Of a DNA stretch of 50,230 nucleotides, positions 1 through 10,717 are shown one piece after another. The translations under genes and the position numbers were made by a program. The DNA comes from Actinomycetota bacterium (lineage in GTDB: Bacteria; Actinomycetota; Thermoleophilia; Solirubrobacterales; Solirubrobacteraceae). Under the pieces are notes generated by a model. That model did not search any database, was not told the origin of the DNA, and worked only from the letters and a program-made list of their open reading frames with translations. Numbering within the stretch: the stretch's first letter is position 1; every line of letters starts with the position of its first letter. The stretch covers positions 86,282 to 136,511 of the forward strand of contig VAWK01000018.1 in the NCBI GenBank assembly GCA_005885515.1. The letters are read 5' to 3'.

Positions 1-87
1 CCCGTAGATCTCGGCGCCGATCTCGATGTCCGCCAATGGCCGCGTGCGGCCGTCGGCCAACAGGACGCGCGTGTCGCCCGAAGCGCA
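1..87 (-). mobile_element. Intein N-terminal segment (5' edge; continues outside window)
   Basis: The intein begins at Cys77 of the host protein (codon 85-87). The following residues, C-A-S-G-D-T-R-V-L then ADGRTRPLADIEIGAEIYG, match block A of Hint-fold inteins: Cys1, then GDT, a strand, and the P-L-x-D-I-x-x-G pattern. Insertion is exactly at the third cysteine of the CxxxCxxC motif, so splicing would need a cysteine as the first C-extein residue to rebuild the cluster motif. Whether a homing endonuclease is present cannot be seen because the rest lies beyond position 1. Confidence 0.85.
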
Positions 88-315
88 GTAGGTGCACGCA
101 TGACTGCATCCCCGGTAGGGATTGATCGTCCAGCGGAACGGCATCCGCGACTGCTCGGGCACGCGGTTGAGGATCGAGCGGGCGCGCACCTCCCAGAACC
201 GCGTCTCGAGCGCCTCGGGCGCATCGAAGCGCCGCAGGGTCGCCTCGTCCCGGTATCCGGGCAGGCGCCGCTGCTGTCCGCCGTCGAGGGTGAGGTCATC
301 CCAGCGCACGAACAT
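1..315 (-). CDS. Rv2578c-family radical SAM protein, intein-interrupted, 5' part only
   Basis: The first 105 codons of a gene that runs off the left edge. Residues 66-77 contain NPYRGCSHACTYC-type sequence: the CxxxCxxC cysteines (70, 74, 77) that would ligate the radical SAM [4Fe-4S] cluster, preceded by the RWTINPYRGC segment typical of the Rv2578c/SPL-like radical SAM group. Directly after the third cysteine the sequence changes to ASGDTRVLLADGRTRPLAD, which is not radical SAM sequence but the N-terminal splicing block of an intein. The mature enzyme would therefore form only after protein splicing. The start chosen is ATG at 313-315, giving MFVRWDDL; it sits inside a palindrome described separately. 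Function in the family is poorly defined; a link to DNA damage is suggested by that palindrome. Family and intein are sure from sequence pattern; the biochemical role is unknown to me. Confidence 0.88.
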   Translation of the reverse strand, partial: MFVRWDDLTLDGGQQRRLPGYRDEATLRRFDAPEALETRFWEVRARSILNRVPEQSRMPFRWTINPYRGCSHACTYCASGDTRVLLADGRTRPLADIEIGAEIYG

Positions 316-1386: not shown

Positions 1387-1752
1387 ATGAACATATCCAA
1401 GATGCTCGGGGCCACCATGGTCGCCGGCGCGCTGGCCGCCGGAGGCGCCGCTTCTGGCATAACCGGCGCCTCGGCCGCGTCCAGCTCGAGCGCCGGCAGC
1501 ACCGGATCGAGTAACGGCGCGTCGGGTTCGGGCGCTGGCAGTGCAGAAACGAGCAACGCCGCGTCCAGTGGCAGCTCCACGACGCCCAAACCCGGCACCC
1601 CCTCTCCCCCGTCCCGCAGACCGACCCCGCACCACAAAGGCCCCTGCCCCGGCATGGGCTCAAGCTCGGGCTCGGGCTCCGGCTCGGCATACGAACCGGG
1701 CTCCAGCTCGGGAGCGGGCCCGGCGGGCGGCCCGGACGTGACCTACCAGTAG
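1387..1752 (+). CDS. Small secreted Ser/Gly/Ala-rich protein
   Basis: A 121-residue product starting MNISKMLGATMVAGALAAGG, a typical Sec signal peptide: one basic residue, a hydrophobic Ala/Gly core, and a likely cleavage around the GASAAS segment near residue 30. The mature part is low-complexity Ser/Gly/Ala with Thr/Pro in the middle, one CPG cysteine, and Ser-Gly dipeptide runs towards the C-terminus that ends PDVTYQ. Nothing enzymatic is visible. The perfect Shine-Dalgarno suggests strong translation. It resembles the short exported low-complexity proteins common in actinobacteria; the role is unknown. It converges with miaB. Confidence 0.6.
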   Translation: MNISKMLGATMVAGALAAGGAASGITGASAASSSSAGSTGSSNGASGSGAGSAETSNAASSGSSTTPKPGTPSPPSRRPTPHHKGPCPGMGSSSGSGSGSAYEPGSSSGAGPAGGPDVTYQ

Positions 1753-1781
1753 CGCCGGTGGGTCCTCACGCGGCGCATAAC

Positions 1782-1814
1782 CCCGCAGGCGCTGCCCACG
1801 CCGGCGCCTGCGGG
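1782..1814. terminator. Hairpin terminator between convergent genes
   Basis: CCCGCAGGCGC (1782-1792) pairs perfectly with GCGCCTGCGGG (1804-1814) around an 11-base loop. It lies in the 88-base gap between the secreted-protein gene (plus strand) and miaB (minus strand) and could end both transcripts. There is no T tract, as is usual in actinobacterial hairpin terminators. Confidence 0.6.
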
Positions 1815-1840
1815 AGCGTCGCCGTCCTGGCTCGGTGCCG

Positions 1841-3205
1841 TCAGCCGGCGACCCTGGCGAGCAAGCTCTCCTCGCCGGACAGCGTCTGGCTGGTGGCGGA
1901 TTCGATCCGCACCTGCGCCAGCTCGCCGGGTGCGGCCAGGCCGGTGAAGTTGACGACCTTGTTGTGTCGCGTGCGGCCGCGCAGCTTGTCGGGGTCGGTG
2001 CGCGAGGGCCCTTCCACGAGCACCTCGAGCGTGCGCCCGACGAATCGCAGGGCGCGCTCGCGCGCCCTGCGCTGGACGAGCTCGACCAGACGCTGCATGC
2101 GCTCGACCTTGACCGGATGCGGCACGTTTGCCTCGGCCGTGTTCGCCGCCTCGGTGCCCCGTCGCGGCGAGAAGATGAACGTGAAGGCACCGTCGTAGCC
2201 CACCTCCTCTACGACCTCCATCGTCTGCAGGAAGTCCTCCTCGGTCTCCCCGGGGAAGCCGACGATGATGTCTGTAGTGAGCGCCACATCCGGCACGTGC
2301 TCGCGGATCAACGCCACCCGGTCCAGATACCGCTGGCGGTCATAGGTCCGCCGCATCGCCTTGAGGATGCGCGAGCAGCCGGACTGCAGGGGCAGATGGA
2401 TGTGCTCGCACAAGCTCGCCAGCTCGGCGTGTGCCCAGATCACGTCCTCGCGCATGTCCTTGGGGTGCGGACTCGTGTAGCGGATGCGCTCGATGCCCTC
2501 GACCGCATCGATCGCCGCGAGCAGTCCGGCGAACGTCGGGCGCGTCGCTGGCGATCCGCCAGCACGCGGGCCCGTGGCTGGCGCGCGCGACGGCAAGTCG
2601 CGCCCGTAGGAGTTGACGTTCTGCCCCAGCAGCGTCACCTCGCGCACGCCATCGGCCGCCATCGCCTCGGCCTCCTGCACGAGCTCTGCAAGCGGGCGGC
2701 TGACCTCGCGCCCACGCGTGGAGGGCACGATGCAGTAGGCGCACGCGCAGTTGCAGCCCACGCTGATCTGCAGCCATCCTTGGAACGGTCTCGCCCGCAG
2801 TGCCGGCAGGTGGCCGGTGAAGCCCTCGAACTCGAAGTACCCCTGCGCCGTGAGCGAATCGCTGATCAGGAACTCGGCCAGCCGATGGACCTGGCCGGGA
2901 CCAAATGCGACGTCGACGAACGGGAAGCGCTCGAAGACCTCGTCCTTCAGAGACTGCGCCCAGCAGCCGCCAACCCCGACCACCCGCTCGGGCCGTTCCC
3001 GCTTCAGGCGCCGCGCTTCACCGAGATGGGCGATGAAGCGGCTGTCGGCCGACTCGCGGATCGAGCACGTGTTGAACAGGATGAGGTCGGCGTCGCCGCG
3101 CCGCGCGGCCTCGGCGTAGCCGAGCGAGCGAAGCATGCCCTTCATCCGCTCGGAGTCGTGCTCGTTCATCTGGCAGCCGAACGTGGTCACGTGGTAGCGC
3201 TTCAT
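1841..3205 (-). CDS. miaB: tRNA-2-methylthio-N6-dimethylallyladenosine synthase MiaB
   Basis: Methylthiotransferase that adds the 2-methylthio group to i6A37 of tRNAs reading UNN codons. The 454 residues show the N-terminal UPF0004 domain with its three cluster cysteines (Cys11 in FGCQMNEHDS, Cys47 in NTCSIRE, Cys81 in GGCWAQ), the radical SAM motif with Cys151, Cys155 and Cys158 before IVPSTRGRE, and a C-terminal TRAM-like domain from about residue 390. An Ala/Pro/Arg-rich insertion (DLPSRAPATGPRAGG) lies in the radical SAM domain. The ATG start matches the family's usual MKRYHVTTFGCQMNEHDS opening. It lies downstream of recA with a 109-base gap; actinobacteria often have recX here, and none is present. 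Confidence 0.96.
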   Translation of the reverse strand: MKRYHVTTFGCQMNEHDSERMKGMLRSLGYAEAARRGDADLILFNTCSIRESADSRFIAHLGEARRLKRERPERVVGVGGCWAQSLKDEVFERFPFVDVAFGPGQVHRLAEFLISDSLTAQGYFEFEGFTGHLPALRARPFQGWLQISVGCNCACAYCIVPSTRGREVSRPLAELVQEAEAMAADGVREVTLLGQNVNSYGRDLPSRAPATGPRAGGSPATRPTFAGLLAAIDAVEGIERIRYTSPHPKDMREDVIWAHAELASLCEHIHLPLQSGCSRILKAMRRTYDRQRYLDRVALIREHVPDVALTTDIIVGFPGETEEDFLQTMEVVEEVGYDGAFTFIFSPRRGTEAANTAEANVPHPVKVERMQRLVELVQRRARERALRFVGRTLEVLVEGPSRTDPDKLRGRTRHNKVVNFTGLAAPGELAQVRIESATSQTLSGEESLLARVAG

Positions 3206-3314
3206 GGACCACAGGGTAGCCCGGCGCTGGCTGCCGAAGCCCGGCGCTCACACTCGCCGGCTCAGCGCCCGAGCAGCTCGTATCCGGCGCGTCGCCCGGG
3301 ACCTCGGTGACTGC

Positions 3315-4421
3315 TCAGGCGGCCCGCGCCGCCGCGGGTGCGGCGGGTTCGCTGGCGATCGGCGGGCGTGCCTCGCCGTCGCGGTCGATCGGCGTGACGG
3401 CATCCTTGCTCAGGCCCAGCGCCGCATAGATCTTCTCCTCGATCTCCTTTGCCAAAGCGGGGTTGGCGTCTAGGTGGGCCTTCGCGTTGGGACGCCCCTG
3501 GCCGAGGCGGTCGTTTCCGTAGGAGAAGAACGAGCCGGACTTGGAGACGATGTTGTGCTCCAGGCCGAGGTCGAGCAGGCAGCCCGAGGTGGAGACGCCC
3601 TTGCCGAACTCGATGTCGAACTCCGCCTGGCGGAAGGGCGCGGCGACCTTGTTCTTGACGACCTTCACGCGCACGCGGTTGCCGACCGCCTCGGTGCCGT
3701 CCTTGAGCGTCTCGATGCGCCTGATGTCAAGGCGCTGGGAGGCATAGAACTTCAGCGCGCGGCCGCCCGGCTGCGTCTCGGGACTACCGAAGAGGACCCC
3801 CACCTTTTCGCGAATCTGGTTGGTGAGGATGCACAGCGTCTGCGTCCGGTTCAGGTTGGCCGCCAGCTTGCGCATCGCCTGAGACATCATGCGCGCCTGG
3901 GCCCCCACGGTCTGGTCACCCATTTGACCCTCGAGCTCGGCACGCGGCGTGAGCGCGGCGACCGAGTCGATCGCGACCACGTCGACGGCGCCCGAGCGCA
4001 CGAGCATGTCCGCGATCTCCAGGGCCTGCTCGCCGTAGTCGGGCTGCGAGACCAGCAGCTCGTCGATGTCGACCCCGATCTCTTTCGCGTACAGCGGATC
4101 CATCGCGTGCTCGGCGTCGATGAACGCGCACACCCCGCCCAGCTTCTGCGCCTCGGCCAGCACGTGATAGACCAGCGTGGTCTTGCCCGAGGACTCGGGG
4201 CCGAACACCTCCACGATGCGCCCGCGCGGCACGCCGCCGATCCCGAGTGCCAGGTCCAGCGACAGCGCCCCCGTGGGGATCGCCTCGCAGCGCACCTGCG
4301 CGCCCTCGTCGCCCATGCGCATGACCGTGCCCTTGCCGAACTCGCGCTCGATCTGCGTAAGCGCGCCCTGAAGAGCGGCGTCGCGCGCCTTGGCTGCCTT
4401 CTCCTGGTCGGTCACGGGCAT
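3315..4421 (-). CDS. recA: Recombinase RecA
   Basis: DNA strand-exchange ATPase and LexA coprotease. The product is 368 aa. The Walker A motif GPESSGKTT is at residues 74-82; the core with [13 protein letters not shown] and the DNA-binding loop region with [14 protein letters not shown] follow, and the C-terminal tail is Ala/Pro-rich. The ATG at 4419-4421 is preceded by GAGGAG and fits the family start; a longer open frame upstream is only the absence of stops. No intein is present, although RecA is a common intein host. I see no canonical SOS box in the 167 bases upstream, so expression may come from the thpR-cinA side or from a divergent operator. recX is absent downstream. Confidence 0.97.
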
Positions 4422-4588
4422 GGTCTGGCTCCTCGCTCGAGATGGACCGAGCAAGCTACTCCTCGCCGCGGACGGAACAGCCGCCCGCAATGGGCCGCCG
4501 GGCCTGGCCGTAGCGGCCCGCTCGCGCCCTTTCCCGCCCGCTTGCGCCGTTCGGCCTCGCGCCACCTGCACGCCGAGCGGACGGTCGC

Positions 4589-5230
4589 TCAGCGCTCGGC
4601 GGCGAGCAGATCGCACGTGGCCAGAGGCTGGTAGCTCGCGCCGGCGGAGGATAGCCACGAGCGGTACAGGACGATCGCCTCGGGCCTGAAGCTCAGCGAC
4701 GGCGTTGCCGGCAGGACGGGCTCCTCGGCCTGCGCGCCGCCTGGGCGAAGGCGCGCTGGCCCAGCGGGGCGCGATGGGGCGCCGCGCCCGCGCATGCGGG
4801 CCACGGTGATGTGCGCTTTGAAGCGACGCCGCTCGGCCTGCCAGCCGGTCGCGTCTGCCAGCGCGCCGCGCAGCCCTTCGTGCAGGCGCGTAAGCCCTCC
4901 GTCGCGGTCGTGTACCTCGACCGCGAGCGCCCGGGGGCGCCGCGGCGGCAGCCACAGGGGAGCGCCGAGCGAGAGCTCCCCAACCCGGGTCGCGCAGCCG
5001 CTGAGCACGGCGGCGATCTCCGCAATCTCGCCCACCGGACGGCCGCCGAGGAAGCACAGCGTCACGTGCAGCGCCTCGGGCTCGAGCAACCGCATGCTCG
5101 CGAGCGCCCCTCGCCCCCTCCGGATCGGCAGCCTCGCCGTGGCCGCGCGGGCCCACGCGAGCAACCCCTCGCGCACCTCCGCGGGCGGGTCGACCGCTAT
5201 GAACAGGCGCGCTGTGGCATCACGGGTCAT
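4589..5230 (-). CDS. thpR: RNA 2',3'-cyclic phosphodiesterase
   Basis: A 2H-phosphoesterase (historically 2'-5' RNA ligase) of 213 aa. Both catalytic HxT motifs are visible: HVTLCFLGG in the N-terminal half and HITVARMRG in the C-terminal half. RLFIAVDPP near the start is the usual first strand of the fold. I chose the ATG at 5228-5230; an in-frame TTG at 5264-5266 would add twelve residues without better support. It sits between cinA and recA, its usual place in actinobacteria. Confidence 0.9.
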
Positions 5231-7443: not shown

Positions 7444-9945
7444 CTAGTCTCTCGCAGTCGCGGCGGGCTCGCCCAGCGCGGCCAGCACGCGCGGCAGGTC
7501 GGCCTCGGTGATCAGGACCTGCCTGGGCTTGGACCCCTCATAACCGGAGATCACCCCCCGACGCTCGAGCATGTCGATCACGCGGCCGGCGCGGGTGTAG
7601 CCGAGGCGCAGGCGACGTTGCAGCATCGACGTCGAGGCCGTCTGCATTTCCGCCACCAGGGTGATCGCGTCTGCCAGCACGGGGTCCTCGTCCGGATCGA
7701 GCTCCTCCCCCTCCGCGGCGTGCTCGTCGCTCTCGAGCTGCTCGAGCAGCTCCTCGCGCAGCTCCGGCTCCCCCTGGCGCCGCCACTGCTCGGTCAGGCG
7801 CGCGATCTCGCGCTCGTCGATGTAGGCGCCCTGGATGCGCTGCAGCCGCGAGCTTCCCACCGGGCTGAAGAGCATGTCGCCTTGACCCAGCAGCGACTCG
7901 GCTCCGTTCTGGTCGAGGATCACGCGCGAGTCGGTTTGCGACGACACCGCGAACGCGATGCGCGAGGGCACGTTGGCCTTGATCATGCCCGTGATCACGT
8001 CGACGCGCGGGCTCTGCGTGGCGAGCACGAGGTGAATGCCAACGGCGCGCGCCTTCTGCGCCAGGCGGATGATCGAGTCCTCCACGTCCGCCGGCGCCAC
8101 CATCATCAGATCCGCGAGCTCGTCGATCACGCACAGGATGTAGGGCAGCGGCGGCTCGCCGGCTGCGGCGCGCCGCGCGTTCAGCTCGGGCAGTCCGCGC
8201 GTGCGTGCCATCGACATGATCCCGTAGCGCTGCTCCATCTCGCGGACGAGGTTCTTCAGCGCGTTGGCGGCCATGCGCGCGCTCGTGATCACAGGCGTGA
8301 GCAGGTGCGGGATCGACTCGTAGTGGTTGAGCTCCACTTGCTTGGGGTCGACCAGCACGAGGCGCACCTGGTGCGGCGTCGCCCGCAACAGCACGCTGGC
8401 GAGCATCGCGTTGATCGCAGCCGACTTGCCCGCGCCGGTGGTGCCGGCCACCAGCAGGTGCGGCATCTTGGCGAGGTCCGCGCCGATCACCTTGCCGGCC
8501 ACGTCCTTGCCGAGCCACACCGCCAGCGGCGAGGAGTCCTTCGGTGGCTCCTGGAAGACATCCCCCAGCCGGACGATGCGGCGGTGGGCGTTTGGCACCT
8601 CCACGCCGACCGCCTGCTTACCGGGGATCGGCGCCAAGATGCGGATGTCGGTCGCCGCCAAGGCGTAGGCGAGGTCGTCCTTCAGCTGCGCCACCTTGGC
8701 GACCTTCGTTCCCGGCGCGAGCCTGAGCTCATAGCGCGTGATATGGGGACCGGTGACGCTTCCGATCACTTTTGCTTTTACGCCGAAGTGCCCCAGCGCC
8801 TCGAGCAGGCCGGCCGCGATCTGGGACTGGCCGGCGGTGTCGGGGCGCAGCTGCTGATCCGTCGAGCGCACGAGCATCTTGGCCGCGTCCGGAAGCTGCC
8901 AGGCGAAGCTCGGATCGCCGGTGACCGCCTCGCACAGCCGGCCGCGGGGCGTGAGCGCGGCCGCGCGCGCATAGGTCACGCCGGGGATCTGCTCCTCGGC
9001 GGGATCGCCGTCCCCGCCGGCCGCTTGCTCGCCCGCCGCGCGCGAGCCGGTAAGCGCTTCCGGCGGCGACGCGCGCTGCTGCTCGGGCCCGGCAGCGTCA
9101 TCGTCGGGGTACATCGAGCGCAACACCAGCTCGCCCGGAGGCGGCTCGGGAGCGGCCATATCCGCTTCGGAGTCGAGCGGGTCGCCGTGCGCGGCATCGA
9201 TCTCGGCCGGGCAGGCGCCGCCGCCCGCGGCCAGTCGACGATCGAGTAGCGCGCGCGCGCCGCGCGCCGCGCGCGCCAGCCCGGCGGAGCCCGCCGCGAG
9301 TGTGCTCGCCAGAGATGCTCCGGTGAGCATGAGCACGCCCCCGAGCAGCAGGAAGATGACGAGGATGTCCACGCCCACCTGCTGCACGAGCCCATGGGCC
9401 ACCTGGTAGAGCGCCTCCCCCACGACGCCCCCGTGCGCCTGCAGGAACGCTGGCGTCCACCGGTCCTGGCCGCGCTCCGCGGCGGAGCTGATGCCGAACG
9501 TGCCCGCGGCGAGCGCGAGCGTGAGCGACGCGAACAGGCACGTCAGCCCGCCGCGCCGCGAGCGCGGGTCGGGCAGCACCGCGCCCAGCAGCAGCGTGCC
9601 CCCGGCGAAGCACAGCGCGAGCGGCGCGAGCCCCCGCGCGCGGCCCAGCAGCCAGCCGAAGGCGACCGCGAGGCCGTGCCCGGCGCCGCCGCCGTCCCAA
9701 CCGCCGTAGAGGACAAACGCCATGAACACCCCCAGCGCCACCAGCCCCAGCCCGAGCAGCTCGCGCTGCACAGGCGAAGGGCTCCACAGCCCCAGGCCGG
9801 GCAATCGCGCCGGCAACGACAGCGCCCGGCCGAGTAGTCCACGCGCCCTGCCACGCCGGCGCCGCCGCGCGCGCCCGCCACGGCGCCCCGACGCGGCGCC
9901 GACCGAACGTCGGCCAGCGGACGGACGTCTGCCGCTCGAGGCCAT
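7444..9945 (-). CDS. ftsK: DNA translocase FtsK/SpoIIIE
   Basis: Septal DNA pump of 833 aa. A basic N-terminus is followed by four hydrophobic segments (roughly residues 60-220), an acidic/proline linker, the FtsK alpha/beta motor with Walker A GTTGAGKSAAINAM and Walker B LPYILCVIDELADLMM, and a C-terminal gamma winged-helix domain (LQRRLRLGYTRAGRVIDMLE) that reads KOPS-type polarity sequences. I use ATG at 9943-9945; a TTG nine bases upstream is possible. It lies 16 bases from the RodZ-like gene and is divergent from the two-component genes. Confidence 0.95.
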   Translation of the reverse strand: MASSGRRPSAGRRSVGAASGRRGGRARRRRRGRARGLLGRALSLPARLPGLGLWSPSPVQRELLGLGLVALGVFMAFVLYGGWDGGGAGHGLAVAFGWLLGRARGLAPLALCFAGGTLLLGAVLPDPRSRRGGLTCLFASLTLALAAGTFGISSAAERGQDRWTPAFLQAHGGVVGEALYQVAHGLVQQVGVDILVIFLLLGGVLMLTGASLASTLAAGSAGLARAARGARALLDRRLAAGGGACPAEIDAAHGDPLDSEADMAAPEPPPGELVLRSMYPDDDAAGPEQQRASPPEALTGSRAAGEQAAGGDGDPAEEQIPGVTYARAAALTPRGRLCEAVTGDPSFAWQLPDAAKMLVRSTDQQLRPDTAGQSQIAAGLLEALGHFGVKAKVIGSVTGPHITRYELRLAPGTKVAKVAQLKDDLAYALAATDIRILAPIPGKQAVGVEVPNAHRRIVRLGDVFQEPPKDSSPLAVWLGKDVAGKVIGADLAKMPHLLVAGTTGAGKSAAINAMLASVLLRATPHQVRLVLVDPKQVELNHYESIPHLLTPVITSARMAANALKNLVREMEQRYGIMSMARTRGLPELNARRAAAGEPPLPYILCVIDELADLMMVAPADVEDSIIRLAQKARAVGIHLVLATQSPRVDVITGMIKANVPSRIAFAVSSQTDSRVILDQNGAESLLGQGDMLFSPVGSSRLQRIQGAYIDEREIARLTEQWRRQGEPELREELLEQLESDEHAAEGEELDPDEDPVLADAITLVAEMQTASTSMLQRRLRLGYTRAGRVIDMLERRGVISGYEGSKPRQVLITEADLPRVLAALGEPAATARD

Positions 9946-10030
9946 CCAGCGCAACTTCGACGCCGAGCCCGCGGAACCTCCCCACCGCGCCTTACCATCG
10001 CTTTAGCGCCTATCGCTACACACAAGCCAG

Positions 10031-10717
10031 ATGAACGACTTCACTCGCGCGCCGCGTGTCCTGGTCGTCGAGGACGACGAGGACATCGCACAGGCGCTTC
10101 AGCGCTCCCTTCGCATGGAGGGATATGAGGTCCGCGCTGCCGCCGACGGGCGTGCGGCGCTCGAGCACGGTCGATCGTTTGCCCCCGATCTGGTGATCCT
10201 CGACCTGGGCCTCCCCGGGCTCGACGGGCTCGAGGTGGCGCGCTCGCTGCGGGCCGAGGACGATGTGCCGATCCTCATCCTGACCGCTCGCGACGCGCTC
10301 GAGGCGCGCGTGGAGGGGCTGGATGCCGGTGCCGACGACTACCTGGTGAAGCCGTTCGAGCGCCAGGAGCTGCTCGCGCGCATGCGCGCGCTGTTGCGCC
10401 GGCGACCGCCACGTGGCTCGGCGCCACTGCGCGTGGGCGATCTCACGCTCAACGTGGACACCCACGAAGTGCAGCGCGGCGAGCGCGCCGTCGAGCTCAC
10501 CCAGCGGGAGTTCGAGCTGCTGGAATATCTGATGCGCAACGAGCGCATCGTCATCTCGCGCCAGCGGCTGCTCGACGAGGTGTGGGGATACGACCCGTTC
10601 TCGACCACCAACACGATCGAGGTGTTCGTGTCCAACCTGCGCCGCAAGCTCGAGTCCGAAGGCGAGCCACGGCTGTTGCACACGATCAGGGGGGCCGGCT
10701 ACGTCCTTCGTGCCTAG
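10031..10717 (+). CDS. OmpR/PhoB-family response regulator
   Basis: A 228-aa DNA-binding response regulator. The receiver domain has acidic pocket Glu14-Asp15-Asp16, phospho-acceptor Asp58 in LVILDLGLPG, Thr85 in LILTARD and Lys107 in YLVKPFE. The C-terminal winged helix includes ELTQREFELLEYLMRNE and ends RRKLESEGEPRLLHTIRG then AGYVLRA. The overall pattern is MprA/TcrA-like. The gene pair lies between rnj and ftsK on the opposite strand. Its last eight bases overlap the kinase start, as expected for a coupled two-component operon. The signal is unknown. Confidence 0.95.
   Translation: MNDFTRAPRVLVVEDDEDIAQALQRSLRMEGYEVRAAADGRAALEHGRSFAPDLVILDLGLPGLDGLEVARSLRAEDDVPILILTARDALEARVEGLDAGADDYLVKPFERQELLARMRALLRRRPPRGSAPLRVGDLTLNVDTHEVQRGERAVELTQREFELLEYLMRNERIVISRQRLLDEVWGYDPFSTTNTIEVFVSNLRRKLESEGEPRLLHTIRGAGYVLRA

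Follow-up and report, generated by a model that had tools for sequence, protein, structure and literature searches.

The Rv2578c-family gene at the left edge of the window (the whole stretch of 50,230 nucleotides analysed) almost certainly carries, as judged from its sequence, an intein of class 1 that includes a LAGLIDADG homing endonuclease and is inserted at the codon for the invariant third cysteine of the radical SAM motif. This architecture is of a known, curated kind (NF038136), which agrees with the precedent of intein-bearing Rv2578c-family proteins mentioned in the preliminary description, and the gene is a further, ordinary member of it. The open reading frame on the minus strand, from position 315 to position 1, encodes 105 residues (MFVRW to ...AEIYG), reading MFVRW...NPYRGCSHACTYC and then, across the junction, ASGDTRVLLADGRTRPLADIEIGAEIYG, and it exits the window at the left edge. 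Residues 70 to 76, CSHACTY, directly precede the intein start at Cys77. The NF038135 profile (Rv2578c-family radical SAM) matched residues 4 to 78 of the N-extein (1.6e-26) and also the C-extein (2.1e-90); the summed score of 396 bits is below the cut-off of 430, as are the scores of intact relatives. The homology of both exteins and the CxxxCxxC motif predicted after splicing indicate that the host is a Rv2578c-family radical SAM protein. Elsewhere in the window, positions 1015-1223 have a second copy, 77% identical, at G000:C53:10741-10949.

Coordinates of the intein-bearing gene in the window and in its left flank (L003)
Feature	Position	Strand	Basis or remark
Sequenced stretch (window)	G000:C49:86282-136511		
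N-extein, residues 1-76 (MFVRW...GCSHACTY), Rv2578c-family radical SAM protein	88..315	-	ORF, translation, NF038135
Cys70 codon, cluster cysteine 1	106..108	-	sequence, residue position computed
Cys74 codon, cluster cysteine 2; position -3 relative to intein	94..96	-	sequence, residue position computed
Cys77 codon, intein Cys1, in place of cluster cysteine 3	85..87	-	same start in 8 other intein-bearing genes (relatives)
Intein block A and following, 29 residues (CASGDTRVLLADGRTRPLADIEIGAEIYG)	1..87	-	continues left of window
61-N assembly gap	L003:8222-8282		directly left of window position 1, inside intein
Intein remainder, 285 residues, ending SHN	L003:8221-7367		translation
C-extein, 269 residues and stop, beginning CFARPTHTYLGF	L003:7366-6557		translation

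The preliminary description had placed the intein start at the third cysteine of CxxxCxxC and expected Hint blocks, possibly a LAGLIDADG domain, an HN end and a C-extein beginning with Cys further to the left; the start was located exactly there, and all of these elements were found in L003. Left of the 61 Ns, L003 contains an open frame of 554 residues, with block B (TSEDHRFLT), two LAGLIDADG motifs (YLRGVIRGDG and FLAGIFDAEG) and the intein C-terminal sequence YDLTTGTGDFIANGVVSHN (VVSHN end). Both the C-terminal block and resumed radical SAM sequence, the absence of which would have spoken against an intein, are thus present, the latter reading from CFARPTHTYLGF to a stop. The two splice junctions and blocks A, B and F/G can all be recognised. 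The hallmarks of a class 1 intein are the CASGDT start, SEDH, the SHN end and the +1 Cys, with Cys1, the His of block B, the terminal His-Asn and the +1 Cys conserved; block B has Ser in place of the usual Thr (SxxH), and relatives are alike in this. Since an acidic residue is retained in both LAGLIDADG motifs (RGDG and DAEG), the endonuclease looks intact and would be expected to cleave.

Profile searches are consistent with this anatomy. NF038136 matched in two pieces (5.8e-42 and 1.7e-136; 144.3 and 456.4 bits against a cut-off of 700, with 31 residues unsequenced), which align to model positions 1-106 and 135-566. Most of the complete relatives also score below this cut-off, and only 1 of 61 genomes passes it. 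The cut-offs of PF14528 LAGLIDADG_3 (36.2 versus 22.5) and TIGR01443 (19.0 versus 15.6) were passed, and PF14890 Intein_splicing scored 17.6 on the C-part, with a cut-off of 35.8. TIGR01445 intein_Nterm reported the loci of relatives and not this locus in its own genome, presumably because the gap splits blocks A and B. The motif pattern had no matches in 200 shuffles of L003. The structure model of a relative, L068, resembles three LAGLIDADG inteins (TliVMA, PI-SceI and PI-PfuI) as well as the endonuclease I-DmoI; with a mean pLDDT of 70.5, low values in parts and a high whole-chain rmsd due to domain arrangement, the model was used for domain types only. Two more intein N-terminal regions, in frames of 1383 and 1452 residues, are found in the same genome at G000:C67:15310-15558 and G000:C7:16412-16705, respectively.

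The host family was found in 36 of 61 related genomes. Among the 33 genes in the extein tree, 9 contain the intein and 24 lack it, and the presence label changes 8 times on the tree, compared with a mean of 8.0 for shuffled labels. L012, the neighbour of the window's gene on this tree (89/78), is intein free. In all intein-bearing relatives, the third cysteine is the first intein residue and Cys is again the first residue of the C-extein, and the empty-site genes have closely similar, uninterrupted flanking codons. Decayed inteins (L026, L034, L025 and L040) and endonuclease-free mini-inteins (L007, L027, L038 and L042) coexist with intact forms. Sporadic presence combined with intact, decayed and mini forms is, on sequence grounds, what would be expected of a homing element that is gained, degenerates and is lost. 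Homing would also be the main explanation for the insertion point, where the codons around cysteine 3 are among the most conserved in the gene and the site would supply the +1 Cys needed for splicing. The intein of L034 (G035) is 448 amino acids long because of a long low-complexity insertion, rich in Ala, Gly and Ser, between block B and the decayed endonuclease. L035 is the Rv2578c gene of a single-contig relative and lacks the intein. Near 1149-1190 (G031:C1 about 685650-685690), a T run (CTTTTAT) in this gene shows a shift of one base, which lies a few bases ahead of the insertion point and is either a sequencing error or a scar left by repair at the homing site.

Inteins at the same residue are distributed more widely in radical SAM proteins, including those of phages. 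A search pattern consisting of C-x3-C-x2-C followed by an intein start matched in 9 of 296 genomes of the phylum, and the reversed pattern matched in none. Two of the nine are of the PA0069 type, L043 by profile and L044 by sequence. In viral_contigs, each of the 14 matches was a radical SAM gene interrupted by an intein at cysteine 3. In genome_contigs, where the search excluded the His of the Rv2578c-type motif, 5 of 10 matches were real, including PA0069-like proteins of Planctomycetales, a proteobacterium and a gemmatimonad, a Rv2578c-like protein of an actinomycete and a PapB-like maturase, and L061, L066, L067, L069 and L070 were discarded as chance matches. The phage host proteins comprise a B12-binding radical SAM protein (L047), SPASM or MoaA-like proteins (L056 and L060), PHROG 13321 or PA0069-like proteins (L050, L052, L054 and L055) and an unplaced fragment (L048). 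The phage contig L058 contains two oppositely oriented copies of one intein-bearing radical SAM gene (1496-4765, minus strand, and 8164-10050, plus strand), and one of them follows in frame after roughly 500 residues of structural appearance; the duplicate is probably a palindromic assembly artefact. No papers were found in literature searches for inteins with spore photoproduct lyase or for intein insertion sites with radical S-adenosylmethionine.

In the splicing-domain tree, the inteins of the Rv2578c, PA0069 and PHROG-13321 types, except that of L050, form one clade (99/97), which includes the window's intein and spans four phyla as well as Rv2578c, PA0069 and phage proteins. The inteins of L047, L048, L050, L056, L060 and L062 fall outside this clade, and the L060 intein is alignable to it over its full length, endonuclease included. 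A single clade of site-3 inteins was rejected (AU p = 0.003) only when the site-2 intein L074 was kept out of it; when L074 was included, a single clade of radical SAM inteins was not rejected (AU p = 0.43), and independent invasion by all site-3 inteins is therefore unsupported. L056 and L074, both from viral contigs, have related inteins (99/94) in similar phage radical SAM proteins, and their insertion sites are three residues apart, L056 having its intein at the third cysteine and L074 at the second.

Controls for the other two cluster cysteines used end-of-intein patterns, whose sensitivity is not equal to that of the third-cysteine pattern. With these patterns, no first- or second-cysteine inteins were found in the same 296 genomes, and viral_contigs yielded no true first-cysteine case, the sole match being due to chance. 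The second-cysteine pattern gave 13 matches in viral_contigs, of which only L074 and L080 were radical SAM proteins; the rest were terminase, other phage proteins or chance matches. Seven of nine lineages have the intein at site 3 (binomial p = 0.008), a value that was not counted as evidence because the patterns are unequal and the independence of the lineages is uncertain. A preference for the third cysteine in these samples is thus suggestive, given the unequal pattern sensitivity and possibly related lineages. It is quite improbable that the third cysteine serves inteins as a hot spot throughout the radical SAM superfamily of bacteria and phages because a Cys-3/Cys1 pair makes splicing responsive to oxidation, metals or cluster loading and thereby delays the release of oxygen-sensitive enzymes until conditions are suitable.

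The anatomy suggests a splicing route in which Cys77 of the precursor would attack the Tyr76-Cys77 bond, the N-extein would be transferred onto Cys +1 of the C-extein, the terminal Asn of the intein would cyclise with the help of the penultimate His, and an S-N shift would yield a 345-residue enzyme with CSHACTYCFARPTH. The preliminary description assumed that the precursor cannot assemble the SAM cluster normally before splicing. This premise needs correcting, since intein Cys1 takes the place of the third ligand and the precursor retains a complete C-x3-C-x2-C. Because Cys70, Cys74 and Cys1 still spell the motif, a cluster or metal might bind there and occupy the splicing nucleophile, and such binding could itself block splicing. 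The geometry of the MoaA type is present, with Cys74 at -3 and Cys77 as intein Cys1. In the unspliced precursor these two residues make up a CxxC pair; disulfide formation or metal binding by this pair would be expected and, from the MoaA precedent, would slow splicing in oxidising or metal-rich conditions. Redox- or metal-sensitive splicing is therefore plausible from the position of the insert.

A stronger claim is that the intein has been retained as a post-translational switch, in which splicing is blocked, until conditions suit the oxygen-sensitive enzyme, either by a disulfide between Cys74 and Cys1 or by the binding of a metal or an Fe-S cluster to Cys70, Cys74 and Cys1. The presence of Cys -3 and Cys1 in every case found, the same cysteine pair in the Pyrococcus abyssi MoaA precedent, and the higher number of inteins recovered at cysteine 3 than at either of the other two are consistent with this claim. 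However, Cys-3 is conserved because the radical SAM enzyme needs it, and its conservation is thus no evidence of regulation. The sporadic presence of the intein (9 of 33 genes), with many close relatives lacking it, argues against a conserved regulatory role, and the comparison of sites depends on unequally sensitive patterns and on inteins that may share ancestry. A retained switch is accordingly considered unlikely, and a homing element in a conserved codon is the preferred reading.

Taken literally, the 61 Ns put the N- and C-halves of the gene in different frames, as would be the case if the gene were dead or mis-assembled, yielding no full protein or joining unrelated halves. The stated gap length would also cause automatic annotation to give two partial genes. 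However, both gap edges are codon boundaries, and 18 of 19 aligned relatives have 31 residues (93 bases) between the same two points, the remaining one having 32. This indicates that the 61 Ns misstate the gap and that the frames can join; a frame break at the gap was rejected on these grounds, and the run of Ns is best read as an estimated scaffold gap size. Every visible splicing residue and the entire C-extein are intact as well, which makes a dead or mis-assembled gene highly improbable, although a lesion may lie within the 31 unsequenced mid-intein residues. With 31 residues added, the predicted lengths are 345 amino acids for the intein, 690 for the precursor and 345 for the spliced enzyme. 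That the Hint and endonuclease domains are instead a stably fused part of the enzyme is scarcely credible, since intein-free orthologues lack exactly this stretch, with the cysteine regenerated at the join, and block G (SHN followed by C) is intact even in forms that have lost the endonuclease.

The useful part of these results is a comparison set, in which radical SAM proteins of the Rv2578c and PA0069 families and of phages have inteins of one clade at the same cluster cysteine. Close relatives without the intein can be set against mini-inteins and full homing forms, and more distantly related inteins occupy that residue in further radical SAM families. With this natural series one can ask whether an intein at an Fe-S cysteine only parasitises a conserved codon or has turned into a redox or metal switch, which is debated for inteins generally.

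Among known systems, NF038136 rSAM_Rv_intein (NCBIfam, intein-containing Rv2578c family) shares the host family, intein family and insertion point with the window's gene, whose own pieces remain under the curated cut-off owing to the gap and divergence. Another curated intein-bearing radical SAM family is NF045703 rSAM_Tes_intein (tetraether lipid synthase Tes), to which the phage L047 protein is weakly similar across the C-terminal junction. Splicing of the P. abyssi MoaA intein is blocked by a disulfide between Cys-3 and Cys1 until this bond is reduced (Callahan et al. 2011, as reviewed in PMC10663303 and PMC3922620). As described in these reviews, that intein resembles the window's intein in having a radical SAM host, Cys1 and an N-extein Cys at -3, but it is archaeal, resides in another radical SAM family and has been studied experimentally. 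The mycobacterial SufB and DnaB inteins, which have been discussed as redox- or metal-responsive, are likewise actinobacterial but interrupt different host proteins, and the DnaB example is a class 3 intein whose disulfide lies inside the intein (Cys48-Cys118) rather than with the N-extein.
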